From assembly GCF_024713975.1 (NCBI RefSeq), contig NC_091111.1, forward strand, positions 17,519,501-17,583,500: a stretch of 64,000 nucleotides of DNA, in the 5' to 3' direction. The translations under genes were made by a program, and so were the position numbers. The DNA comes from Paralichthys olivaceus. Its lineage: Eukaryota > Chordata > Actinopteri > Pleuronectiformes > Paralichthyidae. The notes below the pieces were generated by a model. That model was given only the letters and a program-made list of their open reading frames with translations. It did not search any database and had not been told where the DNA came from. Below, one piece after another: positions 1 to 20,803 of the stretch. Within the stretch, counting starts at the first letter, position 1. Each line of letters starts with the position of its first letter.

Positions 1-400
1 AGAGCCCCCCCCCCCTTCAGAAGAAACGATTCACTAACATTAACAAGATGTTTGAACGGTTCACGGTAACGTTTCATGTCTTACTTTGTAATGTAAATGA
101 TTTATAATAAAGATTTCAACCCCAGACACGGTTTGTGTGTCTAATGACAGAACCGAGCTTCAGGAAACAAACGAACAACAACAACAACACTACTGAGCTA
201 CAGTCAAACACTCCTGGTGATGGGTTGTGTTATGAAGGGGGCGGGGTCGTTTTGGCGGCTCAGAATATTCAAACTAACGCCGCTTGGGCGCCACCTGGTG
301 GAAGACCGTGGACAGTACACCACCGGATATACAAAAGTTTTTCTATATGTATGTTCGTATTGAATTTTTCTGAAATATTGGTTGGAATGTACTTCCGGCC
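1..400. other. intergenic, possible 3' end of an upstream gene
   Basis: I recognise no gene here. A C-run opens the window and an AATAAA hexamer lies at 106-111 on the plus strand, so the first about 120 bases could be the end of a 3' untranslated region, but nothing else supports this. The last 110 bases hold the left arm of the inverted repeat described separately. Confidence 0.3.
289..337. repeat. left arm of 49-bp inverted repeat with CTCF-like core
   Basis: This segment is the reverse complement of 2368-2416, with one mismatch seen by eye. Bases 289-301 read on the minus strand as CCACCAGGTGGCG, which fits the vertebrate CTCF core consensus. The two arms bracket both tRNA-Tyr genes and the LINE tail. 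Whether CTCF binds is inference. Confidence 0.7.
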
Positions 401-489
401 CCTTCGATAGCTCAGTTGGTAGAGCGGAGGACTGTAGGTTGATGACGTCAGAGATCCTTAGGTCGCTGGTTCGAATCCGGCTCGAAGGA
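401..489 (+). tRNA. tRNA-Tyr (GTA) with 16-nt intron
   Basis: The gene closely matches vertebrate tRNA-Tyr. The acceptor arms CCTTCGA and TCGAAGG pair, the D-arm contains TAGCTCAGTTGGTAGAGC (A box), and the B box is GGTTCGAATCC. The anticodon GTA is at 434-436. An intron lies one base 3' of the anticodon at 438-453, the conserved place for tRNA-Tyr introns. Removing it leaves the usual 73 nt ending in discriminator A. A short T run at 501-505 can serve as the Pol III terminator. It looks functional. Confidence 0.97.
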
Positions 490-642
490 GGTGGCTTTAG
501 TTTTTACCACGTCATAAAAACGTCACAACAACACGGGTGGCCACGTCCGTGATGTTTCCCGCGCCAGGGCGCTGTTGCATCGGTGGAGGCGCGCGTTCGA
601 CACATTTAACCTAAGTTACAAACAAACAGAGCGATATATATT

Positions 643-679
<37 letters not shown>

Positions 680-905
680 CTGCGACAGATGAAAATACAA
701 ACACATTCATAAGTTACATGTTTGTGTTGAACTTTTCTAAACAAGGCTACAGAGTGCTAGCCCTGCTTCACGAAACAGGAAACACGTGACAACGAAGACG
801 CCTGCTGCAGGTGAGTCACGTCAACAGGTGATGAGTGTCGTCATATTCAGGTTATAGATGGGGGGGGGTCAGGTTAGACAACTAGAACTGTAACATGTTT
901 CTTCT
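490..905. other. intergenic with TA/GA microsatellite
   Basis: No gene is seen. An imperfect (TA)n tract at about 634-655 runs directly into a (GA)n tract at about 655-679. The first about 120 bases after the tRNA are relatively CpG-rich. Confidence 0.7.
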
Positions 906-1561
906 TCTGCTGACTTCAACATGCCGCAGAAAGTGATGGTTGAATTCTACACAGCCATCATTGAGTCCATCCTCACCTCATCTATCACCGTCTGGTTCGC
1001 TGCCTCCACTGCCAAGGACAAGGGCAGACTGCAGCGGATCATAAGGTCAGCTGAGAAGGTCATCGGCTGTGACCTGCCGGCCCTCCTAGACCTGTTCCAC
1101 TCCAGGACCAGTAGGAGAGCAGGCAAGATCATTGCTGATCCCTCACATCCCGGTCACCACCTGTTCCAGAGACTTCCCTCCGGAAAAAGGTTTCGGGCCA
1201 TCAGGACTAAAACCTCTCGCCATCTGAACAGTTTTTTCCCCGTGGCAGTGGGGCTCACAAACAAGCCCCCTGCATCACACTGACTCTGCACCGCACTGAC
1301 TCTACCCCACCACACCCCACCACCTGCACATAATTTATAATTTATTACTACTCTGTTACTGCATATATGTATATACTTTACTTTATTTTATTTTACTTTA
1401 TTTTATTTTTATTCTATTTTATTTTATACAATTTCTTATATATTGTTGTTTTTCTACATTGTTGTTTTATGTACATAAGTAGTGCACCAATTACACCAAG
1501 GCAATTTCCTGTATGTGCAAACATACCTGGCAAATAAAAGAATTCTGATTCTGATTCTGAC
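906..1561 (+). mobile_element. 5'-truncated LINE, CR1/L2-like 3' end
   Basis: An open frame runs in from just upstream of the ATG at 921 to the stop at 1281-1283. It has the form of the C-terminal end of a fish non-LTR retrotransposon ORF2: a region around IIESILTSSITVWF, an RIIRSAEKVIGCDLPAL segment, a PSHPGHHLFQRLPSGKRFR segment and a terminal NSFFPVAVGL. Such endings follow the reverse transcriptase domain in L2-type fish LINEs. The rest is an AT-rich 3' UTR with CAAATAAAAG near the end and a tail of repeated GATTCT units at about 1542-1560. The reverse transcriptase and endonuclease are missing, so this is a dead 5'-truncated copy. The family assignment comes from recall of fish LINE endings, not from a search. 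Confidence 0.75.
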
Positions 1562-1643
1562 TTTGATGTTTCTGTGACGTTGTCTCATGTCTTTGAAGTG
1601 TCTTGTGGTCCAACCCTCTCGTGTGGTGGGCTGACACTCGTCC

Positions 1644-1733
1644 CCTTCGATAGCTCAGTTGGTAGAGCGGAGGACTGTAGAGGTATTGACATCAGAGATC
1701 CTTAGGTCGCTGGTTCAAATCCGGCTCGAAGGA
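1644..1733 (+). tRNA. tRNA-Tyr (GTA) with 17-nt intron
   Basis: This is the second tRNA-Tyr. The acceptor, D-arm and anticodon-arm sequences are the same as in the copy at 401-489. The anticodon GTA is at 1677-1679 and the intron is 1681-1697, differing in sequence and by one base in length from the first copy. The T loop reads TTCAAAT instead of TTCGAAT, which is still an acceptable B box. Removing the intron leaves 73 nt. A four-T run follows within about 5 bases. Confidence 0.96.
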
Positions 1734-1758
1734 GGTGGCTTTTGTCTTTGTATTTCTA

Positions 1759-2094
1759 AATGAGAAAAAGACGGTCAATACCACAGACTGTATATAAAGA
1801 GGTCAATACTTATACGTCTTTCCTGGCACTACTCCAGCTGTAGTACAACAGCGCTTCGCTCATAATTCACACGTAATTATCGCGTAAGAGAGTCAAACAC
1901 GACTCACCTTCAACACGGAAATCTAGGGGAGCGGGAGAACAGGCACCGAAAACTAAGCCCACAGAGGAACGTGATTGGTCAAAAGTAAGCCCCAGACGGG
2001 CGTCTATCCCGTCTATTCCGCCAAAGTAAACCCAAAGTAAGCCCATAGTAGCCAATCACGTTCCTCCCCTGGGGCTTACTTTTGGACCGCCTTC
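1759..2094. repeat. tRNA-linked repeat, copy 1, with inverted CCAAT motifs
   Basis: This segment shares most of its length with 3500-3930, starting in both with GAGAAAAAGACGGTCAATA. Its right part folds on itself: GGAACGTGATTGGTC near 1970 is mirrored by GCCAATCACGTTCCTC near 2050, and a segment related to CCCGTCTATTCCGCCAAAGT is found inverted in the other copy. The ATTGG/CCAAT motifs and CpG content look promoter-like on the minus strand, and a potential splice donor (AAGGTGAGT) follows on that strand at about 1905-1913. It could be a foldback transposon or a duplicated promoter plus first exon. I do not recognise the family. Confidence 0.55.
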
Positions 2095-2623
2095 CTCATT
2101 AGCATACGGACACAGAAGTACAGAAATGTATGGAGGACGAGAAATGACTTAAGTATAAATACATAAATAAATACATGTATAAGTAAAGGTAACGTTTATT
2201 TTTTTAATTTCCACATTTATTTATTTCTGTATTTCTGTCTCATATGAACATGACTAGGGGCGGTCCTGACCTCAGTCTTCTGCCTGTCAGTGCTGACTGT
2301 TGTGCAGTAGCTGCTGTTTGCAGTGTTGAGTCAGTTCACGCTTAAAAACGACGAGTTCATAGTTCATCTTTTGTATATCCGGTGGTGTACTGTCCACTGT
2401 CTTCCACCAGGTGGCGCGAGTTATTAATCCGTGGTGTCTGATCATGTCTGCGTGTCGTCATTTTATCACTGAGTCCTGGCTGTGAGCGTCTCGTCTCATG
2501 CTGAACTGAGCACGACATGTTGACGAGTCATGTTTCATGATGTTTAAATGATACGAACCACGATTGAGAACTGTTCACTGCGCGTGGGTATAAATTGCGA
2601 AGTCACCTCTTCATGTGCAGGAC
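2095..2623. other. intergenic
   Basis: No gene is recognised. The stretch contains a T/A-rich tract at about 2150-2240 and the right arm of the 49-bp inverted repeat. Confidence 0.6.
2368..2416. repeat. right arm of 49-bp inverted repeat with CTCF-like core
   Basis: This mirrors 289-337. Bases 2404-2416 read CCACCAGGTGGCG on the plus strand. The cores of the two arms therefore point away from each other across the tRNA-Tyr genes. Confidence 0.7.
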
Positions 2624-2696
2624 GGGGGATTAGCTCAGATGGTAGAGCGCTCGCTTAGCATGCGAGAGGTAGCGGGATCGATGCCCGCATCCTCCA
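2624..2696 (+). tRNA. tRNA-Ala (AGC)
   Basis: This is an intact 73-nt tRNA that matches a known vertebrate tRNA-Ala(AGC) type. The acceptor arms are GGGGGAT and ATCCTCC with discriminator A, the A box is TAGCTCAGATGG, and the anticodon AGC at 2657-2659 sits in a CTCGCTTAGCATGCGAG stem-loop. The B box is GGATCGATGCC. A long T run starting at 2699 is a strong Pol III terminator. Confidence 0.97.
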
Positions 2697-3001
2697 AGTT
2701 TTTTTTTTTTCTTTCGCTTTGAATATTATTTTATTTTCTACATACCGCTTTTTAAAGAGTGGTGATATAGAAAACATATCATGTGTAAAACAGACCTCGG
2801 GATTCAGAGATTCACTCTTCACGTGTTTCTTCTGCTGATAACTGACGTGCAGATTATGAAACTGACACCAACAGTAGTGATATATAGAAGAATTAATGGA
2901 AGTGATATTGCACATGATATCGAAATATGTTATATAATATCACCTTAAGAATCCTTTAGAGGATTCTCTCAGCGCTGACGTCATATGTCGAGAGTCCTCA
3001 C

Positions 3002-3074
3002 GGGGGATTAGCTCAGATGGTAGAGCGCTCGCTTAGCATGCGAGAGGTAGCGGGATCGATGCCCGCATCCTCCA
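3002..3074 (+). tRNA. tRNA-Ala (AGC)
   Basis: The 73-nt sequence is identical to the copy at 2624-2696, including the AGC anticodon and both internal promoter boxes. A T run begins at 3081, shortly after the 3' end. It is the second tRNA of the first tandem unit. Confidence 0.97.
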
Positions 3075-3436
3075 GAGTCCTTTTTTATTTTTTTCTCCTG
3101 ATGATTCATGATTTCTGGACTTTTCAAGACTTCGGTGACCCTGGATAAAAGTCTCCTCTCTCCTGATTTCGAAGCTATACATCTGTAATTCATGTTTTTT
3201 GTTTGGAAACGAGGCAATCTCAAACTCTTAATATAAGTTTATGACACCTCTATGAATAATATACATTTTCTTCATGACTTCATGCAGAATAGTTTTGAGT
3301 ATTCACAACCTGTTCAGCTCAGATACAAGAACAAATTATGTTTTTCTGTTACAGTCTTTTGTAAATCTGAATTTTTAATGTGGATCAGAGCCCTGTCTGC
3401 AAGTGTGTCATGACGTCACACAACTTTTGTTCTCAC

Positions 3437-3978
3437 GGGGGATTAGCTCAAATGGTAAAACACGACTCACCTTAGCGAGGACGCAAAAAACTATTTTTCT
3501 GAATGAAAATGAGAAAAAGACGGTCAATACTTATACGTCTTTCCTGGCACTACTCCAGCTGTAGTACAACAGCGCTTCGCTCATAATTCACACGTAATTA
3601 TCGCGTAAGAGAGTCAAACACGACTTACCTTCAACACGGCGGAACTCGAGGGGAGCGGGAGAACAGGCACCGAAAACTAAGCCCACAGAGGAACGTGATT
3701 GGTCAAAAGTAAGCTCCAGGGGAGGAACGTGATTGGCTACTGTGGGCTTACTTTGGGTTTACTTTGGCGGAATAGACGGGCAGAGGAACGTGATTGGTCA
3801 AAAGTAAGCCCCAGGAGAGGAACGTGATTGGTCAAAAGTACGTGATTGGTCAAAAGTAAGCCCCAGGGGAGGAACGTGATTGGCTACTTTGGGCTTACTT
3901 TGGGCTTACTTTGGCGGAATAGACGGGATAAAGGAAGCGCAAAGCGAGAGGTAGAGGGATCGATGCCCGCATCCTCCA
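3437..3978 (+). pseudogene. tRNA-Ala split by a 485-bp repeat
   Basis: The first about 21 bases (3437-3457) are the 5' end of tRNA-Ala through the D-arm. The last 35 bases (3944-3978) are its 3' part from the anticodon stem onward, with one change in the variable/T-stem region and an intact 3' end CATCCTCCA. The anticodon loop is missing. The intervening DNA is the repeat also found at 1759-2094. Position in the tandem array shows it was once the first tRNA-Ala of the second unit. It cannot yield a normal tRNA. Confidence 0.85.
3459..3942. repeat. tRNA-linked repeat, copy 2, with four CCAAT-type motifs
   Basis: The left part (about 3500-3720) matches 1760-1990 almost base for base. The right part holds repeated blocks built from GAACGTGATTGG, AAAAGTAAGCCCCAGG and TTTACTTTGGCGGAATAGACG, so it has expanded internally by short tandem duplication. 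The two copies differ in the arrangement of these blocks. The function is unknown. Confidence 0.6.
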
Positions 3979-4429
3979 AACGTTTTTTTTTCCTTTCGCT
4001 TAGAATATTATTTTATTTTCTCCTCAAAATGATGATGTCACACCGAGTGTCTCCTTTATCCAGATGTTCTTCTTTTCCATTTGCTTCCTGTATTTTCTGT
4101 GTGCTGAACAGAAAATCTCTGCTGTGAATGAAGATGACACTTTGTGAATGATGTACATTTTTACATACCGCTTTTTAAAGAGTGGTGATATAGAAAACAT
4201 ATAATGTGTAAAACAGACCTCGGGATTCAGAGATTCACTGTTCACGTGTTTCTTCTGTTGATAACTGACCTGACCTGCAGAGTATGAAACTGACACCAAC
4301 AGTAGTGATATATAGAAGAATTAATGGAAGTGATATTGCACATGATATCGAAATATGTTATATAATATCACCTTAAGAATCCTTTAGAGGATTCTCTGAG
4401 TGCTGACATCATATGTTGAGAGTCTTCAC

Positions 4430-4502
4430 GGGGGATTAGCTCAGATGGTAGAGCGCTCGCTTAGCATGCGAGAGGTAGCGGGATCGATGCCCGCATCCTC
4501 CA
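4430..4502 (+). tRNA. tRNA-Ala (AGC)
   Basis: This is the third intact copy, 73 nt and identical to the other two, with a T run from 4506. It is the second tRNA of the second tandem unit. Confidence 0.97.
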
Positions 4503-4833
4503 GAGTTTTTAATTTTTTCTCCTGATGATTCATGATTTCTGGACTTTTCAAGACTTCGGTGACGCCAGATAAAAGTCTCCTCCCTCCTGATTTCGAAGCT
4601 CTACATCTGTAATTCATGTATTTTGTTTGGAAACGAGGCAATCTCAAACTCTTAATATAAGTTTATGACACCTCTATGAATAATATACATTTTCTTCATG
4701 ACTTCATGCTGAATAGTTTTGAGTATTCACAACCTGCTCAGCTCAGATACAAGAACAAATTATGTTTTTCTGTTACAGTTTTCTGTAAATCAGATTGTGT
4801 GACGTGATGACGTCACACAACCTGTGTTCTCAC

Positions 4834-4917
4834 GGGGGATTAGCGCTCTACCATCTGAGCGAGCGCTCAGAGTGGCCACTACATTCAATCAAGTTTATGC
4901 TCTTGATTGAGTGGAGT
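4834..4917. pseudogene. folded-back tRNA-Ala fragment and hairpin at array end
   Basis: Eleven bases of the tRNA-Ala 5' end (GGGGGATTAGC) are followed directly by GCTCTACCATCTGAGC, the reverse complement of the tRNA's own D-arm region. The tRNA gene is thus fused head-to-head to a piece of itself. Next comes GAGTGGCCACTACATTCAAT at about 4871, whose reverse complement recurs imperfectly at 4901-4924. This junction ends the tRNA array and abuts the outer inverted-repeat arm. Confidence 0.7.
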
Positions 4918-6043
4918 GGCCACTCAGTTTTCAGGCCTCACCGCACCCGAGCATCACTACAGGCCTGCAACTAAGTTTCAAGTTGATCATTTCTGAAGTG
5001 GGCCCACATGTGATGTTTGTGAGTTAATTTACAGTTGATAGGAATTGTGTTTGTTTTTATTCAGAGACCTGTGAAAGGTAAAGATTTTATTTAACCAGTG
5101 AATTAAAGGGTACATTGAGAAGTCATAGGAACAGTTTAAACAATTTAAAGAGACCCTGTATTTTATTTTGTGCATTTATTTTGTTTTGTAAATATTTTAC
5201 TTCCTGAGAGGAATTCACAGCCTTTTCATTTATTTCCTATTGTAAATAAACACCTGTGAAGGTTTTGACTTTTAAAATACAGTTGTGGTGGTCTTTAATA
5301 TTAATTAGAGGAATTTAAACAAAAGATAAGATTCGTTTCAAATATTCTTCTGAGATCATATTCATTTTTTTGTGTTTACGAGCTCAGGCCCAGGAGATCT
5401 GGGTTAAATAAATATAAGACTTCATTTGTCCAATTGTTTAATAAGGTTTCATTGAAACCACTACTTCAGGTGATTTTCAGTTGCATAACCTGTGAGTCAC
5501 CGCTTTTCCCACACTAGTTGGCTGCCTAATCACTCCTGGCCCTTTGCTACATACATCAGAAGGGGGTTATCTGTAATCAGCATGATCTTTCACAAGATCC
5601 ATGAGTTTAATTAGCACAAAAAAAAAATGTTGTTAATAATAATAATAAAAAACAGTTCAACATATCTGAAAATAAAATATACAATTATTTGAAACAATAT
5701 GAAATTAAGAGCAAAGTATCGTGATAAAAGGCTGTGTAATGTTTTAGAGTCTAATATTTAGAAAGTAACAAAATGTCCTTTCAGTTTGTCTGATACAAAT
5801 ACATTGTGTATACATCAATCTCTTGTTCTGATTCTGTTTGATGAGTGCATTTGATGGCTCATCAGATTTTTGGTAAATTGAGTGGATTTATTTTGAGAAT
5901 ACTCGAAGTGCACAGTGTGACACTGCACCCCACATTATCACGGACAGCTTTGGAAAAGTACTAGTTTGCAGCAACGTCACTCACATGAGAAGATACTGTA
6001 GCTCTGTGCATCAAACAGTGTCAGGTCTAGGATATGATAAGCT
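4894..6043. repeat. outer inverted repeat, left arm (1.15 kb)
   Basis: This is the reverse complement of 19387-20803, with few differences seen by eye, apart from one 266-bp segment present only in the right arm. The sequence is AT-rich and noncoding and I do not recognise a repeat family. The arms enclose the whole 13.3-kb EFHC1 block. They could be remnants of a large inverted duplication or two insertions of one element. Confidence 0.85.
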
Positions 6044-6058
6044 CGTTTTCGCTAATGC

Positions 6059-6272
6059 TGCGTTCCAGGCAGGCTTTTGAAATCGTAAATTACAGCTTCA
6101 AGTCACAACTTACGACTTTGTAGCGTTTCAGGCAACCCACTCGTGTTTTTCCGACCTGTTTTACCGGTGAAAGTCACTATAACGGCCACTCGTAACTTCC
6201 GACCGGTGAACTCGTACCAGATCGACCTGGTACCACTTCACGGTCGGAAAAATACGAGTTTCCTTGAACGCA
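6059..6272. mobile_element. MITE-like non-autonomous DNA element
   Basis: The ends read TGCGTTCCAGGCA on the left and, as reverse complement, TGCGTTCAAGGAA on the right, giving short imperfect terminal inverted repeats. Internally TCGTGTTTTTCCGACC is mirrored by GGTCGGAAAAATACGA near 6242-6257, so most of the element is foldable. The size (about 214 bp) and palindromic build fit a fish MITE. No target duplication is evident. Confidence 0.5.
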
Positions 6273-6754
6273 CCATAACAGTCCTCGTCCCTACGTCGCC
6301 ACATTCACGGCGTCCCTTGGCTGCACACACAGCCCTGCATGCCGTTCTCTCTCCTCATTGGATAAAAACTGTAGGATACGATAAATGTTTTCTCCTCGGC
6401 TCAGAGCAGAGCAGAGGGACTGACAGACCCGTGTTTCAGTCCAAACACTCTATGTAAGTGATTGCTGTCGGAAGATATAACTATTTAAGACTTATATTAA
6501 CACAAATATATAACTTACTTCTGCTTTAATCAATCCTAAATTCCTACATCAGTTTAACATGTTCCCCCCTACACTATTGTAAAGCAATTCATCTGATAAT
6601 AATGAGTGTGAGTTTTTAAACGTGAATTTAAATTTAAGAGTGCTCAAGTCATTGGTTGCAACCTGATAGTTTCATTTTAAAAATGATCATACACTTTCAA
6701 TACATTTTTATGTCTTCTCACTCTCTACGCATTGTTCTTTTTTTTCTGTTCCAG
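6273..6754. other. intergenic / intron-like, nothing recognised
   Basis: An open reading frame continues from the MITE to 6457, but it has no recognisable domain and overlaps repeat DNA, so I do not call it. The remainder is AT-rich and ends in a polypyrimidine tract with CTGTTCCAG at 6746-6754, a good splice acceptor for the exon that follows. Confidence 0.5.
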
Positions 6755-7066
6755 TCAGGCGAAGACCCCACCCTGTATCTGGAGAAGCGTCCTCTCTCCT
6801 CCCCAGTTTTGCTTTTTGATGGATCAACCACCATCGTGGCTGTTGGTAATGTACCTGTGACCACCCTTCCACAGGAAGATTTCTCAGAAGGGATGTTGGT
6901 GCTATTGGCATACTACTACACGTTGCATTTAACATACCCTAAATGTGTTGCAACGCTCCTCTCTGTTATTCAAACAGAGGTCATTGGTGACACAATCCAC
7001 GATCAAGATGCCACTAGTGCATATAAGAAAGCAATGGCTGATTGGAAATCATTCATTGACAAGTAG
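6755..7066 (+). pseudogene. orphan terminal exon of a fish multicopy gene family
   Basis: Immediately after a strong acceptor an open frame of about 103 codons runs to a TAG. Its middle reads PVLLFDGSTTIVAVGNVPVT, followed by LAYYYTLHLTYPKCVATLL and a C-terminal AMADWKSFIDK. I recall C-terminal segments of this kind (a short strand-rich stretch, then an aromatic segment with a YPKC-like motif) in expanded teleost families of uncharacterised proteins with SAM-type or zinc-finger N-termini, but I cannot confirm the family. No upstream exon is found between here and 4.9 kb. It is best read as the last exon of a gene left behind by duplication. A live gene using distant exons is less likely. Confidence 0.45.
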
Positions 7067-7206
7067 CTGAATGTCAAGCAGTATTTTGTCATGTCAGTTG
7101 TTCTTGTTATTGTTACCCATGCCTTACAATGGTTTTGTGTATTCCACAAGTTTATTACAGTGTCACTTAATTATTTGCTTGAATTGTTTTACCTCATCGA
7201 GGCCTG

Positions 7207-8099
7207 CACTGTAAAATGTAACTAATGGTTTCAACTTAAAAATATGAGCGAAAGGGCTGCCTTAAAATTTCAAGTTAAGTGAAAGAAAAAAAGACGCTAC
7301 GGTCGCGGCCGCACCCCTGTTTCAGTTGAGTTGTCTGAACTAGCAAATCTGTTTAATTTGAATTAAAAATGTAAGTTCTGTAAATCTTTTGTGTCATTTG
7401 ATTTATTAATTGATTGAACTGCTTGGTTGTTATTTGAATTTGCAAATCTATCTTAGTTTAATTAATTTTCAAGATAAACCTGCTTGGATTAAGACAGAGT
7501 TCACTAATAGTATAGTATTTTTCTCTAAATTTAATATTTTTCTTAACTAATCTTCAGCTAAATTTGCTAAAAGAAGGAAAGATTTTGTTTGTAATTGCTT
7601 ATATTTAGTATATTTCACTTATTTTGAGGCTGTAAAAAGTTACTTTTTTAAGTAATCTCATTTTAAAACCAGCATTTTATGCTTAAATTTAGTATGTTTC
7701 ACTTATTTCTAGGCTGTAAAAAGTTACTTTTTAAGTAATCTAATCTTAAAAACGAGCATTTTATGCTTATATTTAGTATATTTCACTTGTTTTGAGGCTG
7801 TAAAAAGTTACTTTTTAAGTAATCTCATCTTAAAACCAGCATTTTATGCTTAAATTTAGTATATTTCACTTGTTTAGAGGCTGTAAAAAGTTACTTTTTA
7901 AGTAATCTCATTTTAAAACCAGCATGTTTGGCTTATTTTAAGCCTTCCAAACACCTCTGTAGACATGCTTATTTCTAGATTTAACAATCTTAATTTAAGA
8001 AATCTTGTCAAGTGAAATTATCTTGCTGCATGGACAGATAATTTCACTTGTTTTGAGTAGTGTTTTTATCTTGTTTTTAGACCCCCCTTTTTTGCAGTG
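7207..8099. mobile_element. fish non-autonomous DNA transposon(s) with CACTG ends
   Basis: The segment starts CACTGTAAAA and ends TTTTTTGCAGTG, typical termini of short hAT-like or Kolobok-like fish elements. The right part, on the minus strand, has the familiar run AAACAAGATAAAAACACTA. There is no transposase. It may be two elements side by side, because the left and right halves differ in style. Its right end abuts the rearrangement breakpoint at 8103. Confidence 0.6.
7590..7925. repeat. 84-bp tandem repeat inside the transposon, about 4 copies
   Basis: GGCTGTAAAAAGTTACTTTT recurs at about 7628, 7712, 7796 and 7879, giving a period of 83-84 bp. Each unit also carries a motif related to CAGCATTTTATGCTTA and a TATTTCACTT motif. 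Confidence 0.8.
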
Positions 8100-8102
8100 T
8101 TA

Positions 8103-8268
8103 AATTTAGGGTGTCAGTTAGAGCCGTGGTCTAATGCTCTAATGTATACATTCAGTTATTCTCAAACAACCTAAAATTCCTCAGATTTTCTTAGGAGCTG
8201 GGGGCCTCAAACCCAAGGATAGACTTCCTTTAAAGGGAAGACAACACATAGGATTTTAAGACACCACA
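8103..8268 (-). mobile_element. LTR fragment, LTR retroelement, truncated by rearrangement
   Basis: This is the first about 166 bp of the same LTR that lies complete at 13936-14493, here on the minus strand and at the same position in EFHC1 exon 2. It ends at 8103, where unrelated transposon DNA begins, so 8103 is a breakpoint of the inverted duplication rather than a natural LTR end. The fossil is broken, and the insertion predates the duplication. Confidence 0.85.
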
Positions 8269-8940
8269 GGTGTTTTGAAGGTCCGCTTGTTGATCTCCTG
8301 CTGGATCACTTGCTCTGACAGAAGAGGATCCTGCCCGATGCCAACAGGGGGGGTACGGAGCCGAAGGAAGCCGTTCTTGAACGTGAGATTCTGTGATCGA
8401 TGGAAGGCAGTCTTCTGCAGAGAATGATCATTAAGAAGTACATGCGTTAGATTTTTTAAATCCGGTAAATAGATATAAATCAATTCAAGAATCCAATTAA
8501 ATTGAAGTCCAATTAACATGGTATGTGATCCTATTGTTACAATACATACAACAGCACTAAACTACATAAAAACCTGTCTGACACACAACCAAAGGAGTGG
8601 ACAGAAAAGAACCAGTACAAGATAAATAATTTGAATATAATATTTTTCATGTTTACTAGTAAACGTCTCTACCTGACAACACTGCAACAGAGAATTTTAG
8701 CTTGGTCATTTGTATAGAAACTTTTGTTTCAGATCCCTCTGTCAACTCTGCAGTTGATAGAAAGTTAAAATTTATATATTCAAATTTGCTTAAACTGGAG
8801 GAATGCAGAAAGTAAACTGTAAATATTATATAACTTCAGTTTTGCTAACTGTACTGAAACATTAAACCCTCATGTTATGTAAACTTAAATACGCTTTAAA
8901 TTAAAAATGATAGCTAGTTTCACTTTAGCATAAAAAACGT

Positions 8941-10440
8941 AAAAAACAGAGAGAAGTTAAGAGACTGAAACTAGAACCGGTTCATTTTCTGCCTCTGTGT
9001 TGATAGCTGTCTGGATCAGAGTTTATAATGGTTACAGAAGGAATTTACTCTACCTTCCCGTCCATAGTGAGAAACCGGTGTTTTTTGTCAAATTCTGAGG
9101 GTGTGGTGTAGCAAGGCAGAGTCATTTTGCGATTGTTGATGTAAGGATCAACTGGCATCGGCTCAGGGTCGTTCAAAATAATGCCCTCACTTTCCATGAA
9201 TTTCTGTTTAGACATAGACAGGGTGTATTTTCAACAACTGACGGGTACATATTAAACATACTGTAAAAAAATAAAGATAAATCAAACAGGTTGTACCATT
9301 GTAAACTCATCGCAATTTGTGATGTGGTACTTGCGCACATACACCACCAGGTCTATGCCAAGGTTAAGGTCTTTATACTCGTAATGCTCTCCTCGTTCAT
9401 TCTTGGGCACACGCTGTCGTTTCAACCGTTTCCCCTGCCATAACCCAGAGTTCTCCACTATGGGCTCATAGATGCACATGCTGTCATCCTCTAGGTAGTA
9501 GTATATAATCACAGGGCGCACACGGTACACCTCGTCACGGGAAAACTGGACATCCTCCTTAAAGTATGCATAGAAGCGCAGCACCTACAAGACAAAAGTT
9601 TGGTGAACAGACAAACAAGGGATTAATTAGTCAGGTTACACAGCAACAAACACCATCAAACACTATTCTAAGTCTTTAAAGTTGTAGCATACCTTCTTGT
9701 CTAAGGTCACGTAAGCTGGTACGAATTGTTTACGCAGGCTCTTGTATGAGGAGCCATGAGTCATGTCCGGTGTTTTGAAGGTCTGCTTGTTGATCTCCTG
9801 CTGGATCACTTGCTCTGACAGAAGAGGATCCTGCCCGATGCCAACAGGGGGGATACGGGGCCGAAGGAAGCCGTTCTTGAACGTGAGATTCTGTGATCGA
9901 TGGAAGGCAGTCTTCTGCAGAGAATGATCATTAAGAAGTACATGCGTTAGATTTTTTAAATCCTGTAAATAGATATAAATCAATTCAAGAATCCAATTAA
10001 ATTGAAGTCCAATTAACATGGTATGTGATCCTATTGTTACAATACATACAACAGCACTAAACTACATAAAAACCTGTCTGACACACAACCAAAGGAGTGG
10101 ACAGAAAAGAACCAGTACAAGATAAATAATTTGAATATAATATTTTTCATGTTTACTAGTAAACGTCTCTACCTGACAACACTGCAACAGAGAATTTTAG
10201 CTTGGTCATTTGTATAGAAACTTTTGTTTCAGATCCCTCTGTCAACTCTGCAGTTGATAGAAAGTTAAAATTTATATATTCAAATTTGCTTAAACTGGAG
10301 GAATGCAGAAAGTAAACTGTAAATATTATATAACTTCAGTTTTGCTAACTGTACTGAAACATTAAACCCTCATGTTATGTAAACTTAAATACGCTTTAAA
10401 TTAAAAATGATAGCTAGTTTCACTTTAGCATAAAAAACGT
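8941..10440 (-). repeat. EFHC1 exon 2-4 tandem unit b (1500 bp)
   Basis: The unit runs from the end of intron 4 (at 8941) to the start of intron 1 (at 10440). It is exactly 1500 bp, as is unit a. The seam joins the pyrimidine tract just before the exon 5 acceptor to sequence a few bases inside intron 1, with a shared T run at the joint. Confidence 0.9.
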
Positions 10441-11940
10441 AAAAAACAGAGAGAAGTTAAGAGACTGAAACTAGAACCGGTTCATTTTCTACCTCTGTGT
10501 TGATAGCTGTCTGGATCAGAGTTTATAATGGTTACAGAAGGAATTTACTCTACCTTCCCGTCCATAGTGAGAAACCGGTGTTTTTTGTCAAATTCTGAGG
10601 GTGTGGTGTAGCAAGGCAGAGTCATTTTGCGATTGTTGATGTAAGGATCAACTGGCATCGGCTCAGGGTCGTTCAAAATAATGCCCTCACTTTCCATGAA
10701 TTTCTGTTTAGACATAGACAGGGTGTATTTTCAACAACTGACGGGTACATATTAAACATACTGTAAAAAAATAAAGATAAATCAAACAGGTTGTACCATT
10801 GTAAACTCATCGCAATTTGTGATGTGGTACTTGCGCACATACACCACCAGGTCTATGCCAAGGTTAAGGTCTTTATACTCGTAATGCTCTCCTCGTTCAT
10901 TCTTGGGCACACGCTGTCGTTTCAACCATTTCCCCTGCCATAACCCAGAGTTCTCCACTATGGGCTCATAGATGCACATGCTGTCATCCTCTAGGTAGTA
11001 GTATATCATCACAGGGCTCACACGGTACACCTCGTCAGGGGAAAACTGGACATCCTCCTTAAAGTATGCATTGAAGCGCAGCACCTACAAGACAAAAGTT
11101 TGGTGAACAGACAAACAAGGGATTAATTAGTCAGGTTACACAGCAACAAACACCATCAAACACTATTCTAAGTCTTCAAAGTTGTACCATACCTTCTTGT
11201 CTAAGGTCACGTAAGCTGGTACGAATTGTTTACGCGGGCTCTTGTATGAGGAGCCATGAGTCATGTCCGGTGTTTTGAAGGTCCGCTTGTTGATCTCCTG
11301 CTGGATCACTTGCTCTGACAGAAGAGGATCCTGCCCGATGCCAACAGGGGGGGTACGGAGCTGAGGGAAGCCGTTCTTGAACGTGAGATTCTGTGATCGA
11401 TGGAAGGCAGTCTTCTGCAGAGAATGATCATTAAGAAGTACATGCGTTAGATTTTTTAAATCCGGTAAATAGATATAAATCAATTCAAGAATCCAATTAA
11501 ATTGAAGTCCAATTAACATGGTATGTGATCCTATTGTTACAATACATACAACAGCACTAAACTACATAAAAACCTGTCTGACACACAACCAAAGGAGTGG
11601 ACAGAAAAGAACCAGTACAAGATAAATAATTTGAATATAATATTTTTCATGTTTACTAGTAAACGTCTCTACCTGACAACACTGCAACAGAGAATTTTAG
11701 CTTGGTCATTTGTATAGAAACTTTTGTTTCAGATCCCTCTGTCAACTCTGCAGTTGATAGAAAGTTAAAATTTATATATTCAAATTTGCTTAAACTGGAG
11801 GAATGCAGAAAGTAAACTGTAAATATTATATAACTTCAGTTTTGCTAACTGTACTGAAACATTAAACCCTCATGTTATGTAAACTTAAATACGCTTTAAA
11901 TTAAAAATGATAGCTAGTTTCACTTTAGCATAAAAAACGT
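10441..11940 (-). repeat. EFHC1 exon 2-4 tandem unit a (1500 bp)
   Basis: This is the unit next to exon 1. It differs from unit b at only about 16 positions seen by eye, nearly all inside exons 2 and 3 or the few bases beside exon 2. A third, partial unit lies at 8269-8940. Confidence 0.9.
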
Positions 11941-12579
11941 ACATACCGTGATATCTTGAAAGGTGTATCCAGGTAAGAACGGTAATCTGTGGCTGTTATT
12001 GTTCCAAGACATTGCCCCAATCAAATCTTTCCTAGTGTTCTTATTCTTGTTTCTTCCCTACAACCTGATAAACAACATAATTTACATTTAATGTTTATTG
12101 TAACCAAATGATCACAATTGCAGCCATGGAAGTTAATTGCATAGTCAGACATGACAGTATGGTGATCGTAGGCAATACTATAATATTGACTCTGATTTTT
12201 ACATTTGCTATGTTTGTTATTCATGTTTAGGCAATATTTTGAAATTAGACTGTAACTAACAAGATATATGGATGGGTTTCAAACTAAGTAAAGAAAAAAA
12301 TGTTTTCCCCCATCATCCATATGGCCCCAGTTAATAAGCAATCGTGTCTGTAGGGGGCAGCTTATGCATGTTTAAAATATACTTCTTTTTCAGATACCTT
12401 TTTCCTCTGGCGAAAAGGTGACTGCAGCTCGTGGTTTATAACTAAAAGTGTCTTTCTGCTTCAAAATACCTTCCTCTTCATCTTTGTTCTCTTTTTTTGT
12501 GGGTGGCAACAAACATTAAAGGGCATTTCCACCATAGCTCACTTGTACTTCATAGGTATAAAGGGTGAAATACCTTTGA
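10441..12579. repeat. inner inverted repeat, left arm
   Basis: This pairs with 12625-15317 as a reverse complement. Mirror positions sum to 25204 up to the LTR in the right arm. The arm contains the upstream region, exon 1 and exons 2-4 of EFHC1. Sequence identity is very high. Confidence 0.9.
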
Positions 12580-13191
12580 AGGACAGTTATTAAGTGTAAA
12601 AATGTAGCATTTAAATAAAAAAGATCAAAGGTATTTCACCCTTTATACCTATGAAGTACAAGTGAGCTATGGTGGAAATGCCCTTTAATGTTTGTTGCCA
12701 CCCACAAAAAAAGAGAACAAAGATGAAGAGGAAGGTATTTTGAAGCAGAAAGACACTTTTAGTTATAAACCACGAGCTGCAGTCACCTTTTCGCCAGAGG
12801 AAAAAGGTATCTGAAAAAGAAGTATATTTTAAACATGCATAAGCTGCCCCCTACAGACACGATTGCTTATTAACTGGGGCCATATGGATGATGGGGGAAA
12901 ACATTTTTTTCTTTACTTAGTTTGAAACCCATCCATATATCTTGTTAGTTACAGTCTAATTTCCAAATATTGCCTAAACATGAATAACAAACATAGCAAA
13001 TGTAAAAATCAGAGTCAATATTATAGTATTGCCTACGATCACCATACTGTCATGTCTGACTATGCAATTAACTTCCATGGCTGCAATTGTGATCATTTGG
13101 TTACAATAAACATTAAATGTAAATTATGTTGTTTATCAGGTTGTAGAGAAGAAACAAGAATAAGAACACTAGGAAAGATTTGATTGGGGCA
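12013..13191. promoter_or_regulatory. head-to-head intergenic region of the two EFHC1 copies
   Basis: The two exon 1 starts diverge from here, each with the same about 570 bp of upstream sequence in mirror image. They meet at a 45-bp non-symmetric AT-rich centre, 12580-12624. Each arm would thus carry the same promoter and 5' UTR. A 67-codon open frame ends 8 bases before each ATG and is identical in both arms; I take it as 5' UTR, not a gene. I see no clear TATA box. A GTTGCCAC half-site resembling an RFX X-box, a motif expected for cilia genes, lies near 12692 and in mirror image near 12505. It is only a weak hint. Confidence 0.5.
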
Positions 13192-16100
13192 ATGTCTTGG
13201 AACAATAACAGCCACAGATTACCGTCCTTACCTGGATACACCTTTCAAGATATCACGGTATGTACGTTTTTTATGCTAAAGTGAAACTAGCTATCATTTT
13301 TAATTTAAAGCGTATTTAAGTTTACATAACATGAGGGTTTAATGTTTCAGTACAGTTAGCAAAACTGAAGTTATATAATATTTACAGTTTACTTTCTGCA
13401 TTCCTCCAGTTTAAGCAAATTTGAATATATAAATTTTAACTTTCTATCAACTGCAGAGTTGACAGAGGGATCTGAAACAAAAGTTTCTATGCAAATGACC
13501 AAGCTAAAATTCTCTGTTGCAGTGTTGTCAGGTAGAGACGTTTACTAGTAAACATGAAAAATATTATATTCAAATTATTTATCTTGTACTGGTTCTTTTC
13601 TGTCCACTCCTTTGGTTGTGTGTCAGACAGGTTTTTATGTAGTTTAGTGCTGTTGTATGTATTGTAACAATAGGATCACATACCATGTTAATTGGACTTC
13701 AATTTAATTGGATTCTTGAATTGATTTATATCTATTTACCGGATTTAAAAAATCTAACGCATGTACTTCTTAATGATCATTCTCTGCAGAAGACTGCCTT
13801 CCATCGATCACAGAATCTCACGTTCAAGAACGGCTTCCTTCGGCTCCGTACCCCCCCTGTTGGCATCGGGCAGGATCCTCTTCTGTCAGAGCAAGTGATC
13901 CAGCAGGAGATCAACAAGCAGACCTTCAAAACACCTGTGGTGTCTTAAAATCCTATGTGTTGTCTTCCCTTTAAAGGAAGTCTATCCTTGGGTTTGAGGC
14001 CCCCAGCTCCTAAGAAAATCTGAGGAATTTTAGGTTGTTTGAGAATAACTGAATGTATACATTAGAGCATTAGACCACGGCTCTAACTGACACCCTAAAT
14101 TAAGCTGGTGCTATTCCCTTCCTGACACCGGACAATCTGGAGGAAAGCCAGATGCATTTTCTTTAGGTTCACGCAAACAACCCTCCTATATAAACGAGGA
14201 GTTGAAGTTGCCCCTCAGAAGAGATTCACATTGGCCCCGAATCTCTCTCCAGGCAGCAGAAGAGATTCACATTGGCCCCGAATCTCTCTCCAGGCAGCAG
14301 AAGAGATTCACATTGGCCCCGAATCTCTCTCCAGGCAGGAGAGATCCACATTGACCCCGGATCTCTCCATATGCAGATTGCATTGCTTGTATTGATGCTG
14401 AACTTTTGTATAATAAACATTTTATACAATTAAGACGGTGTCATCGGAGATTCCTTCATCATCTTCACATCATCGCAACCCCAATATACGACACACCGGA
14501 CATGACTCATGGCTCCTCATACAAGAGCCCGCTTAAACAATTCGAACCAGCTTACGTGACCTTAGACAAGAAGGTATGGTACAACTTTGAAGACTTAGTG
14601 TTTGATGGTGTTTGTTGCTGTGTAACCTGACTAATTAATCCCTTGTTTGTCTGTTCACCAAACTTTTGTCTTGTAGGTGCTGCGCTTCTATGCATACTTT
14701 AAGGAGGATGTCCAGTTTTCCCCTGACGAGGTGTACCGTGTGCGCCCTGTGATTATATACTACTACCTAGAGGATGACAGCATGTGCATCTATGAGCCCA
14801 TAGTGGAGAACTCTGGGTTATGGCAGGGGAAACGGTTGAAACGACAGCGTGTGCCCAAGAATGAACGAGGAGAGCATTACGAGTATAAAGACCTTAACCT
14901 TGGCATAGACCTGGTGGTGTATGTGCGCAAGTACCACATCACAAATTGCGATGAGTTTACAATGGTACAACCTGTTTGATTTATCTTTATTTTTTTTACA
15001 GTATGTTTAATATGTACCCGTCAGTTGTTGAAAATACACCCTGTCTATGTCTAAACAGAAATTCATGGAAAGTGAGGGCATTATTTTGAACGACCCTGAG
15101 CCGATGCCAGTTGATCCTTACATCAACAATCGCAAAATGACTCTGCCTTGCCACACCACACCCTCAGAATTTGACAAAAAACACCAGTTTCTCACTATGG
15201 ACGGGAAGGTAGAGTAAATTCCTTCTGTAACCATTATAAACTCTGATCCAGACAGCTATCAACACAGAGGTAGAAAATGAACCGGTTCTAGTTTCAGTCT
15301 CTTAACTTCTCTCTGTTCAGGTGCTGTGTTTCTTCGCTCTGTGGGATGACGCTGATCGTCTGCAGAAGGACACCAGATCCGTTACCATCCACTATTACCT
15401 TGCAGACGACACAGTGGAGATCAGAGAGATCCATGGACCCAATAGTGGTCGTGATCCCTTCCCTGTTGTGATGCGCCGACTCAAGCTGCACAAGAAACTC
15501 AAACCACGTATGTTGCAAAGTCGAGAGACTGGAAAATGCAATTTCTAAAAGAAACATCCAGTAGATGACAACAAATATTCCAGCTAAAGTGTGATATGGT
15601 GGCATTTTCATTATTGAGTCACTGCATAATTGTTCTTGTCTTATTTCCTTTCAGAGCCCTTCCCCAGCTGTGTGATGCAGTTGTAATGGACATTTTTACA
15701 TTTGTGAATGTGTAATTGCATGAGCAGACATGTATGTGGAGGACTTACCAAATGGTTCACCAAATTGTTTATCTGAAAGGGCAACCTTAAGGTTTACGAT
15801 GGTGGCTTAAGAGACTTGAGTTGTATGGCCTCGAGAAACCAAAACTTTATGGTGTCTCATGGTATCTCTGATTGGGATCTCACACCTGGGGTCTCACAGG
15901 GGGGTCATCCACAGAACATGTAAACAAATGGACAGGATGTCTCCTCCACTGAGTGAAACTACAGGAGGGTAATAAATACCTTTGAATGCTTAGTGGGAGG
16001 GGGCAGAGAGTTATAAGAACACAGATTCTCCTATGTTCTTTGCTCATTTGTGCATGTCATTCAGGTGATGTGTACTGATGAGTCCATCTGCAGATGCTGA

Positions 16101-17832
16101 ATTAAACTTTCAGAAAGAAGTGTTTGACTTTGTGCTTGTTTCACAGAAATTGCCACCACACAGTTCTCAAAGGATGAGGTGGAGGAGTACTACTCACCCA
16201 AAGACTTCCAGGTGGGTCACACAGTGAAGCTGCTGGGTCGTCCCTTCTTGCTGTATGACTGTGATGACTTCACCCGAAAGTATTACCAAACCAACCACCC
16301 TGACATGGATATGAAACCCATTGAAATACAAAAGAAGGTTAAAGTGGAATGGAAGAGGGTGAGAATTAAATAATCTTTCTAGTTTTAGTCTTCATCTTTT
16401 CTTTCACATGTCCATGTCATCACTGACCTGCCTGTGGGTACTTGTGTTGTGGTTACTATTTTCTCTCGTCCATAACCCTCTCATGTCCATGTTGTCCACA
16501 TCTACAGGAGGTTCCTCCCTACAATGGTTTTGGTTCACCTGAAGATTCTCTCCAGAATTGTTTGGCTCTGATTCCCAAGCGTCCAAAAAAGAATGTGAAG
16601 AAGATGCTGGAGAACAATAACAAAGTGTTGTGCTACAGTGCCACACTGGTGAGTCAACATCAGGGAATGGTCACTGGCCACTCAAAATGACCCAGGAATC
16701 TTAACTCTGGAAATACATTTTATTGATTAACCAGACTGAATCAAAGCCAAAATTTAAAGGATGGAGAAAAGACTATATTGCACCAAACTAGCAACTCTAC
16801 ATACCTTCCTGTTGGTTGTAATTTTCCTATTCTCATTCAAAACCCTACATGGGCTTTCTCTTCCTCACAAGGTGGGACAGCCTACCTGAGGAATTCAGAT
16901 CAGGGCTAATCACTCAACCTGTTTTACTTGTTTACATTACACACACTATTAAAATCTATTACACTATATTATGTCATGTTCTGTAAAACATTTTGCAACT
17001 ATGTTATTAGTTTTATTATTATTAAAACAGATCATTTCTCTGTTTGGTTAAGCTGCCCCTATGTTATTGATTCCAGGACTCACAGAATCCCACCGACGAA
17101 GGCCAACCATTTATTCTGTCTTACTTCCTGTCCGACGACACGATCAGTATTTTTGAGCACCCCACTCCCAACTCAGGTATCATCAGTGGCATGTCCCTGA
17201 AAAAGACACGCATCCTCAAGCCGGGCTCTACTGTGGATAATCCTGACTTCTACTCACCTGCAGACTTTGCTATTGGAGCCACTGTGGATGGTGAGCATCA
17301 CAGTCTGGGTTTACAAAGGGATTGCTTACTCAGATACTACAGAGTCAACTAGGATGTGTAGCTCATTATTACAACCAGCACAACTCTCTCTGAACACATT
17401 AACCTGTATCCAAACTAGGAATTGTTGACCCTGCAATTTTAATTTGAGTTTGAGTATGGGGATCGATACCAAAGAGTGAACGCTCAGCTAATGTCACCTC
17501 TCTCTTCTTTGTCGTGTCTGTTACTTTAGTTTTCGGCCGTCGCTTTGTGCTGACCAATGCTGACCAATACGTCCTTACATACCTGGAGTCCATATCAAGC
17601 CAGATCCCTTCTCAGACGCTGGACTCTTTGCGTCAGAAGCTGGGTGAAGGGGCAGCGAATAACCAGCCAGGTGAACAAAATGGTTAAATAGTCAGCTAAT
17701 AATCTCTATTACTTGTTTGTCAGGGATACTTGGTGTCACCTTTTTTAAATGCACTGATACAATACTCAGCAAAGTAAGCCCTAACTTTTCTTTTTTTAAT
17801 CAGGTGATGAAGTAGAGGAGCCATCTGAGTGA
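13192..17832 (+). CDS. efhc1: EFHC1 (myoclonin-1), DM10-domain ciliary protein
   Basis: EFHC1 proteins are microtubule inner proteins of ciliary doublets. Exons by GT/AG sites and frame: 13192-13257, 13790-14573 (with the LTR inside), 14677-14964, 15059-15208, 15321-15507, 16147-16358, 16508-16648, 17077-17290, 17530-17670, 17804-17832. Without the LTR these total 1650 nt, 549 residues. The first DM10 domain is mainly the 14677 exon ([21 protein letters not shown]), the second starts at 15321 ([24 protein letters not shown]) and the third spans the last large exons ([27 protein letters not shown]). A small exon at about 15655-15680 (PFPSCVM, like FPQCVL in human EFHC1) has a good acceptor but no clear GT donor; skipping it keeps frame. 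The protein ends in EVEEPSE, about 90 residues short of human EFHC1 and without its EF-hand region. The LTR makes a normal full-length product doubtful. Skipping exon 2 (222 nt, phase 0) would keep frame. Confidence 0.88.
13936..14493 (+). mobile_element. solo LTR inside EFHC1 exon 2
   Basis: This 558-bp element begins TGTGG and ends CGACA, and is flanked by the 4-bp direct repeat CACC (13932-13935 and 14494-14497), the mark of LTR integration. The parts seen are a TATATAA box at about 14187-14193, a roughly 43-bp tandem repeat containing GATTCACATTGGCCCCGAAT at 14218-14340, and AATAAA at 14412-14417. There is no internal region, so it is a solo LTR left by recombination. The family is not recognised; an ERV-like or Gypsy-like LTR fits. 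The terminal repeats and target duplication look clean, suggesting a fairly young insertion, but it is older than the inverted duplication because the leftward EFHC1 copy carries it too. Confidence 0.88.
14218..14340 (+). repeat. about 43-bp tandem repeat in the LTR, three copies
   Basis: The segment AGATTCACATTGGCCCCGAA followed by TCTCTCTCCAGGCAG occurs three times, then a shorter degenerate fourth copy (GAGATCCACATTGACCCCGG). It lies just downstream of the TATA box, so it would fall in the transcribed part of the LTR. Confidence 0.85.
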
Positions 17833-18000
17833 TGCCAGTGAAAGCATCGACGAGCTAAAAATGTCAAGATGCACGTTTCACACACACACACGCACAGCAC
17901 ACACACAGCACAGACACCACCCCTTCTGAGACACTAGACTCTTTGCGCCAGAAATTGGGTGCAATAAAAGTGTGAGAACATCATGAGGCAATGGGTGACA
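17833..18000 (+). other. EFHC1 3' UTR with CA repeat, exon-10 echo and poly(A) signal
   Basis: After the stop come a (CA)n tract at about 17880-17912, then a 41-bp segment at 17921-17961 that repeats coding bases 17606-17646 of exon 10 with six differences, then AATAAA at 17963-17968. The poly(A) hexamer fits EFHC1 transcript ends. The exon echo is treated under findings. Confidence 0.65.
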
Positions 18001-18492
18001 TCCAACATGTCAGCTCCCGGCTGCAAAATATTTTATTTGGATACATTATTTATTAAAATCTCATATATATATATACCATACAATAATGACTGTTTTCTCA
18101 TTTGTGTCTATGTGTGTCATATGTATCCTGTGTTTGTTAGCATGAGAACATATAGGGTGTGTATATGTGTGTGAATGTGTGTGCACTTATAAGCATATGC
18201 ACAAACATTTGCTCCGTCCCATTCCCATGAATGCAATATCTCAAGAATGCCGTTTTCCTGAAAATAGTTTATTATAGTTTCAATTTGGAAAAACAGTCCA
18301 TAACTTTTTTTCAATAACATTTTCCCTGAATACTGAGATAAATAATTTAATAATAATTTTAATTCTAAAAGGATATGTTTTCCTCAAGTAAATGATTACA
18401 CTCCCAACAACTATTCTCTGTCCCCGCGACCTTCCCCCCCTCCACTGCTGCACTCCCCCCTCCGATGCGGAGAAGTAAACTCTTTTCACTCC

Positions 18493-18568
18493 AAACAGGA
18501 AACACTTTTAACTCTAGAAACAGGAAGCACTTTTAACTCTAGAAACAGGAAACACTTTTAACTCTAGA
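18493..18568 (+). repeat. 25-bp minisatellite, three copies
   Basis: The unit AAACAGGAAACACTTTTAAC plus TCTAG starts at 18493, 18518 and 18543. The middle copy has one base change. Confidence 0.9.
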
Positions 18569-18761
18569 ACCTTTCTAAACCAATACAAAAATTTGTCTTT
18601 CTAGTCATGTGTCACAGCAGTATCTCTGTTGTCACTCGCTGTCACAAGAGATCCCAGCGCACCAGAAGGCAGCGCAACCTGAGTAACCTCAGAGAGATAT
18701 ACTTAACACCTTTCGTCAAAAAGTGACAGTTTTACGACTTTGAACTTTTACCTAGTGAGGT

Positions 18762-18813
18762 CACGAGAAGAGGGGGGAAGAGAAGAGGAGGAGGGGGGTT
18801 TAGGAAGTGGGGG
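18762..18813 (+). repeat. purine-rich G tract
   Basis: The segment is almost only A and G, with several runs of three to six G (GAGGGGGGAAGAG, GAGGAGGGGGG, GTGGGGGG). It could form a G-quadruplex or triplex on the plus strand. Confidence 0.6.
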
Positions 18814-19386
18814 GTCATAAAAAAAAAAAAAAATATATATATACAAAAGTGAGGGGGATTAAAAACCAGATACGGGGTGAGGTCAGAGAGCGCACTTAGC
18901 TGCAGGAGAACTCAGTATGTAAACATCCAAAGAATAACAACAGGTGTGATTGTATGGCTCCTCTCTCTCACAGACAGAGGCCCAAATGATGCAGAAAAAT
19001 AAAAAACTAAATGGGTAAAACAGGAACAAGGGTCCAAGTTGACTTTCTATGGTTTTGACTGTCTCAGATTTGTTCAAGCTTGTCAGGGTGTGTTATCACA
19101 GATCAAAAATGTTATGACTTTTTATTTTAAGGCTGGAGGTTCCCTATCTATCTATCTATCACAAACTGAACTAAATTCTCAAACACTTCCTGTGTGCTCA
19201 AAAGTCCTGTTCGTTTAATAGAGTCTAGAGGTCTAACTACTACCACAAACTAAATCCTCCAGGCTGCTCGTTTACCAGCCAGCTCACAGTATGTTATGTG
19301 TAAATCAGACAGTGTTAGAGTTTAAAAAAAAAAAAAATATTTACACTATGTAGCTAGGCTTGCAGTTCCAGTCTTTATGATATCAA

Positions 19387-20803
19387 AGCTTATCATATCC
19401 TAGACCTGACACTGTTTGATGCACAGAGCTACAGTATCTTCTCATGTGAGTGACGTTGCTGCAAACTAGTACTTTTCCAAAGCTGTCCGTGATAATGTGG
19501 GGTGCAGTGTCACACTGTGCACTTCGAGTATTCTCAAAATAAATCCACTCAATTTACCAAAAATCTGATGAGCCATCAAATGCACTCATCAAACAGAATC
19601 AGAACAAGAGATTGATGTATACACAATGTATTTGTATCAGACAAACTGAAAGGACATTTTGTTACTTTCTAAATATTAGACTCTAAAACATTACACAGCC
19701 TTTTATCACGATACTTTGCTCTTAATTTCATATTGTTTCAAATAATTGTATATTTTATTTTCAGATATGTTGAACTGTTTTCTATTATTATTATTTACAA
19801 CATTTTTTTTTGTGCTAATTAAACTCATGGATCTTGTGAAAGATCATGCTGATTACAGATAACCCCCTTCTGATGTATGTAGCAAAGGGCCAGGAGTGAT
19901 TAGGCAGCCAACTAGTGTGGGAAAAGCAGTGACTCACAGGTTATGCAACTGAAAATCACCTGAAGCAGTGGTTTGAATATGATTATATATGTTATCTAAA
20001 TTAATGGGACCTCTAGTCTGAGTTATTCTTTGACCCTAAATAATAATAAACCAAGGGCATGGAAGTGCCTAATCAATGATTAACTTATTTTAATTTTACT
20101 TTTACTTTAAAATTGATCCTTGAACACAACTTTTGTTCCAGGTGAAGACTCAGGTACAGTTTAAGCTAATTAATTGATTTTTATAAGGACAGATTTTTGT
20201 CTGTGAGCACTGGATGTGTGCTAATTGTTATCTTGGGTTTCAATGAAACCTTATTAAACAATTGGACAAATGAAGTCTTATATTTATGTAACCCAGATCT
20301 CCTGGGCCTGAGCTCGTAAACACAAAAAAAATGAATATGATCTCAGAAGAATATTTGAAACGAATCTTATCTTTTGTTTAAATTCCTCTAATTAATATTA
20401 AAGACCACCACAACTGTATTTTAAAAGTCAAAACCTTCACAGGTGTTTATTTACAATAGGAAATAAATGAAAAGGCTGTGAATTCCTCTCAGGAAGTAAA
20501 ATATTTACAAAACAAAATAAATGCACAAAATAAAATACAGGGTCTCTTTAAATTGTTTAAACTGTTCCTATGACTTCTCAATGTACCCTTTAATTCACTG
20601 GTTAAATAAAATCTTTACCTTTCACAGGTCTCTGAATAAAAACAAACACAATTCCTATCAACTGTAAATTGACTCACAAACATCACATGTGGGCCCACTT
20701 CAGAAATGATCAACTTGAAACTTAGTTGCAGGCCTGTAGTGATGCTCGGGTGCGGTGAGGCCTGAAAACTGAGTGGCCACTCCACTCAATCAAGAGCATA
20801 AAA
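19387..20803. repeat. outer inverted repeat, right arm (1.42 kb)
   Basis: This mirrors 4894-6043. Its outer end CTCAATCAAGAGCATAAA matches the reverse complement of the left arm start. The only large difference is a 266-bp segment at 19975-20240, which accounts for the length difference. Confidence 0.85.
19975..20240. repeat. 266-bp segment present only in right outer arm
   Basis: The segment is bounded by the 5-bp direct repeat GGTTT (19970-19974 and 20236-20240). The left arm has a single copy of the equivalent AAACC at about 5455-5459 and lacks the rest. I see no terminal inverted repeats, poly(A) tail or coding potential. It is either an insertion with target duplication or a microhomology deletion in the left arm. 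Confidence 0.7.

Follow-up and report, generated by a model that had tools for sequence, protein, structure and literature searches.

EFHC1 (myoclonin1) is a RIB72-type microtubule inner protein that acts in motile cilia or sperm, and its N-terminal part, comprising exon 1 and the start of exon 2, matters for microtubule association. Microtubule inner proteins are usually viewed as a conserved scaffold. The locus described here also resembles two classes of genomic duplication, namely the tandem duplication of symmetric (phase 0) exons and the ampliconic or pericentromeric segmental duplicates, as the latter class is generally understood. Table 1 of PMC10973386 groups human EFHC1, EFHC2, NME7 and CAPS2 under DM10. 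In titles and abstract openings from the EFHC1, DM10 and exon-duplication literature, we found no EFHC1 exon array of the kind reported below.

We analysed a stretch of 64,000 nucleotides from Paralichthys olivaceus (GCF_024713975.1, contig NC_091111.1, called C19 here; C19:17519501-17583500), hereafter the window, and searched the genome to which it belongs (588 Mb, 25 contigs). A unit of exactly 1,500 bp is arranged head to tail on the minus strand at 8269-11941, in two full copies and part of a third that are ~99% identical to one another (Table 1). Each full copy carries exons 2, 3 and 4 of an EFHC1-type gene, which measure 222, 288 and 150 nt and are all in phase 0, and the exon lengths of the array in order are 66/222/288/150/222/288/150/146 nt. 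GT-AG is present at all internal exon boundaries except the cut end of copy C, and modules A and B, which differ at 11 coding sites, have an open frame with zero stops. The unit, its exons and the intact frame described in the initial annotation were thus confirmed. The intron that leads from A to B is 639 nt long and is a fusion, in which intron 4, ending immediately ahead of the exon 5 acceptor, is followed by a few T and then by intron 1, beginning immediately behind the exon 1 donor. Splice junctions from 10554 to 9914 and from 9054 to 8414 would be diagnostic of tandem splicing, whereas 11414 is the ordinary acceptor between exon 1 and exon 2 and is not. Origin as a processed pseudogene was ruled out, as the introns are kept and are ~99% alike. 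The arrangement has the three phase-0 exons, the intron-intron junction and the preserved splice sites and frame of a tandem duplication of symmetric exons, and the number of such triplets can change without loss of frame. It differs from that class in that the array is now cut from the 3' half of the gene and fragments bearing its junction lie elsewhere.

Table 1. Features of the window (position 1 is its first nucleotide).
Feature	Position	Strand	Remarks
LTR, first 166 bp, within exon 2 of copy C	8103-8268	-	in-frame stop at 8258 (TFKTPVVS, then stop)
Partial module C	8269-8941	-	part of intron 1 and 146 nt of exon 2 (8269-8414)
Tandem junction B/C	8915-8970	-	identical to A/B junction
Module B	8942-10441	-	exon 2 9693-9914, exon 3 9297-9584, exon 4 9054-9203; equals A minus 1500
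Tandem junction A/B	10415-10470	-	intron 4 end (without exon 5 acceptor AG) fused to intron 1 start
Module A with introns	10442-11941	-	exon 2 11193-11414, exon 3 10797-11084, exon 4 10554-10703
Exon 1, left-arm copy	11947-12012	-	22 residues
Inner left arm of inverted repeat	11269-12579	-	pairs with 12625-13935
Right arm of inverted repeat	12625-13935	+	5' flank, exon 1 (13192-13257), intron 1, first part of exon 2
LTR splitting exon 2, right-arm copy	13936-14493	+	TG...CA ends, CACC both sides, by eye
Remainder of right-arm copy	14494-17835	+	end of exon 2, exons 3, 4 and 5-10; single module
Second insert, exon 6 of right-arm copy	15681-16160	+	~480 bp by alignment breakpoints; CAGTT both sides
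CCCTAA-bearing satellite	22193-64000	+	~206/610-bp units, interspersed CCCTAA runs

The product that splicing of the left-arm array would yield has 514 residues and consists of exon 1, two modules and part of a third exon 2. The segment encoded by exon 1 and module A aligns ungapped with residues 4-239 of human EFHC1 (E 9.5e-100), including the first DM10 domain, and EFHC1 chains are its top matches. Two DM10 domains were recognized in the whole product by Pfam, both of the DM10-1 type. In contrast to EFHC1, which combines three DM10 domains in one protein with a C-terminal EF-hand region, the array contains the N-terminal region with DM10-1 in repeated form and is without DM10-2, DM10-3 and the EF-hand region. 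Even the intact full-length copies in this genome encode 552 residues, versus 640 in the human chain, and a Pfam search at E 0.001 of the array product and of the 552-residue product of one such copy (PAR, below) found DM10 and no EF-hand. A tblastn search of window positions 1 to 8268 found no EFHC1 exon, exons 5-10 included, to the left of the array. Because copy C also runs into the LTR stop, 514 residues with two DM10-1 domains are the upper limit of what the array can encode, and the proposal in the initial annotation that extra modules extend a complete EFHC1 fails for the left-arm copy; in addition, both full-length copies with an open frame are single-module. A longer EFHC1 read from the left arm was rejected on the same ground, as the downstream exons were not found there. 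The nearest polyadenylation-like signals past the stop are ATTAAA at ~720 bp and AATAAA at ~850 bp, which counts against the reading favoured below. An open reading frame at 6752-7066 had no Pfam match.

The array is accompanied by an inverted partner. The two inner arms lie 45 nt apart and are reverse complements at 99.5% identity (7 differences in 1,311), and the right arm begins a partner gene copy that spans 13192-17835 on the plus strand and is disrupted in exon 2 by an LTR and in exon 6 by the second insert. In copy C and in the right-arm copy the LTR starts at the same base (839 bp aligned with no gap), so that these two share the insertion; modules A and B are without it, and the arms differ in LTR length and inserts. 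The LTR is a dispersed repeat, with at least 47 matches to 13936-14488 (553 bp searched; 40 of 292 candidates scored). An 84-bp tandem repeat is present in four copies at 7596-7940, just past the left-arm LTR breakpoint. In the gene copy at C19:15.84 Mb, window 12569-13935 aligns as a single block, and the 45-nt spacer there leads straight on to the 5' flank; this points to the left arm as the inverted newcomer. An inverted repeat running from 4894 to 20802 was considered and dropped: with 40 of 208 candidates scored, at least 39 additional copies of 18687-20802 were found, which marks it as a dispersed repeat. The outer match between 4894-6043 and 19387-20802, inverted around the EFHC1 copies, falls in this repeat. 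These two window copies are 99.0-99.5% identical to each other versus 94-98% for the others among the matches listed; the outer part may belong to a palindrome, and the inner part alone is counted as firm. Many copies of the dispersed repeat (18687-20802, 4894-6043) among the matches listed lie at coordinates below 1 Mb.

To the right of the partner copy, a satellite fills the remainder of the window from 22193. Satellite matches were also detected on C1, C2, C3, C7, C8, C12, C13 and C18 (40 of 1331 candidates scored), and matches on nine contigs, C19 included, at coordinates of several Mb mark it as a candidate for a (peri)centromeric satellite that contains telomere-like motifs. A fragment that bears the tandem junction (T, at C19:17.722 Mb) abuts the satellite on one side, ~180 kb past the point where the satellite starts in the window, and the intervening stretch, a small part of which was read, has satellite matches listed at several positions as far as 17.711 Mb. 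On its other side fragment T has a tRNA-Ala-like piece, and tRNA-Ala genes also lie on the left side of the window, where ARAGORN in its bacterial setting called three tRNA-Ala (AGC) genes in direct order at 2624-4502 and a tRNA-Leu at 1644-1733. The inverted copies, repeat-rich borders and adjoining satellite are shared with ampliconic or pericentromeric segmental duplicates, but the amplified module here differs from that class in that its replacement changes exceed its intron changes.

Searches of the genome returned at least 28 matches to DM10 and at least 15 to the module. EFHC1-type loci on C19 lie at 15.01 Mb (full gene PAR and fragment N01), 15.84 Mb (full gene F84), 17.53 Mb (the window) and 17.72 Mb (fragment T), and others lie at C16:23.34 Mb (Q16) and C1:27.95 Mb (Q1a and Q1b); a locus on C10 looks like EFHC2. 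PAR and F84 each have an open frame of 552 residues, GT-AG internal boundaries and one module, and they are the only copies found whose full-length frame was read as open. Exon 3 of Q16 contains a stop, and Q1 is scrambled. The 33-base core of the tandem junction occurs at four places in the genome, all with zero mismatches: twice in the window, at C19:17722901-17722933 and at C19:15010278-15010310. No further place was found in the genome with two mismatches allowed, and a backward control pattern gave 0 matches. The base-identical junction at four places suggests that the tandem duplication was probably a single event, and the two occurrences outside the window lend support to the in-frame duplication of exons 2-3-4 first proposed from the window alone. 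N01 joins this junction to an exon 2 of the F84 kind, which suggests that the duplication probably preceded the changes characteristic of the window exons. PAR is a mosaic relative to the window, being ~86-88% alike in exons 2-5 and ~92-97% in the 3' part, which suggests exchange between copies. Taken together, the window locus is probably a lateral offshoot of a multi-copy gene family that is young and derives from EFHC1.

We also compared the changes that have accumulated in exons and introns of the family. When family pieces were compared with F84, divergence was higher in exons than in introns and flanks in all seven cases; module A differs at 28 of 726 exon positions versus 9 of 1409 in introns and flank. 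PAR shows no such excess against F84 (127/1641 in exons, 100/1206 in noncoding sequence). Sites were divided between a window lineage (A, B, C, the right-arm copy, and T where present) and the other copies (F84, Q16, Q1a, Q1b, N01). There are 49 variable sites in exons 1-4, and the 27 that involve the window lineage comprise 26 replacement changes and 1 silent change, versus 16 and 6 for the 22 confined to other copies; in introns 1-4 (844 columns), the corresponding counts of variable sites are 6 and 13. Under this grouping, which was made post hoc once the sites had been seen, replacement changes in the window lineage exceed the neutral rate, as in a positively selected family, but the silent-versus-replacement test alone gives only P 0.003-0.004, and its contrast between the window lineage and the others only Fisher P 0.036. 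For replacement versus silent plus intron changes, the two groups differ at Fisher P 0.0064. Over eight neutral mutation models, with CpG weights of 1 to 15 and two GC biases, the probability of at least 26 replacement changes out of 33 in the window lineage is 1.6e-7 to 2e-5, and it remains 4.7e-5 to 1.2e-3 once the cluster at codons 17-23 and the sites that vary in both groups are removed. Under the same models the other copies look neutral (P 0.1 to 0.4). The first 138 nt, that is exon 1 and 24 codons of exon 2, hold 10 of the 26 window-lineage replacement sites (P 0.017). Exons 1-4 of the window lineage thus contain more amino-acid changes than the introns predict, and this excess fits past diversifying selection on the amplified module. 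Since copies seem to exchange sequence, the sites behind these values are not fully independent. The singletons in exons 5-10 of the broken right-arm copy are also mostly replacement (5 versus 1 silent, with the first four bases of the exon 7 piece left out), which indicates that part of the excess arose in a copy that possibly makes no protein.

Based on these data, we lean towards a reading in which this side branch of the EFHC1 family left an array that is cut off but whose module copies once made protein and were driven to change; as a whole we hold it to be fairly probable. Present-day expression of the array is clearly less probable than this. A plain, decaying segmental duplication, in which every copy in the window is a pseudogene and modules A and B have stayed open only because they are young, is a substantial possibility that we place short of even. 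Copy C, the right-arm copy, Q16 and Q1 are all broken, and the locus adjoins satellite and dispersed repeats. The chance that 21 random changes would introduce no stop is 0.57-0.67, and the open frame of A and B therefore proves little. However, decay at the intron rate predicts ~11-14 replacement changes among the 33, whereas 26 were observed.

The exon excess might instead be mutational rather than selective, through error-prone cDNA-mediated conversion or CpG/GC hypermutability, a proposal that is compatible with either of the readings above and that we judge unlikely. It would account for an intron 1 that is nearly unchanged across chromosomes, with 0 to 2 differences from F84 in ~530 positions, PAR aside, and for the 27 CpG in exons versus 7 in introns of the inferred ancestral module. 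Between F84 and Q16, silent sites likewise change more than introns (14/298 versus 16/1803 noncoding), so that selection may not explain all of the exon excess. In contrast, the CpG- and GC-weighted models still give P <= 2e-5, and about one silent change in four would be expected, whereas 1 in 27 was observed. Near-identical repeats next to a long satellite are hard to assemble, and collapsed or chained alleles could in principle have produced both the tandem copies and the inverted arm. Such an artefact is quite improbable given that the same junction lies in different surroundings at C19:15.01 and 17.72 Mb, that A and B differ at their 11 coding sites, and that the arms differ in LTR length and inserts.

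Under the reading that we favour, the observed fusion of the end of intron 4 to the start of intron 1, which makes a unit of exons 2-3-4 that repeats in frame, would go back to one duplication event, followed by expansion, inversion and truncation. At some time the module copies would have been translated into protein that was under pressure to diverge, with motile cilia or sperm as the probable site. If transcribed and spliced, the array would join exon 1 to two DM10-1 modules and part of a third exon 2, and it may still make a short protein. Such a putative repeated-DM10-1 protein would most likely bind the microtubule wall as EFHC1 does, without the remainder of EFHC1, and could act as a competitor or partner of full EFHC1 in motile cilia or sperm. 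A bolder version, which we consider rather unlikely, sees in the left-arm gene a still active EFHC1 derivative that is truncated and evolving fast, for example a sperm-axoneme competitor of the intact C19 copies, shaped by sperm competition or meiotic drive, with unequal crossing-over shifting its dose and length.

If the array is not expressed, the locus would be an ordinary segmental duplication and a caution against reading tandem exons as a longer protein. If the favoured reading is true, the locus would demonstrate that a set of three exons can be multiplied without loss of frame, and diversifying selection would have acted where it was not expected, on a dispersed EFHC1 family whose amplified N-terminal DM10 module gathers amino-acid replacements next to nearly static introns.
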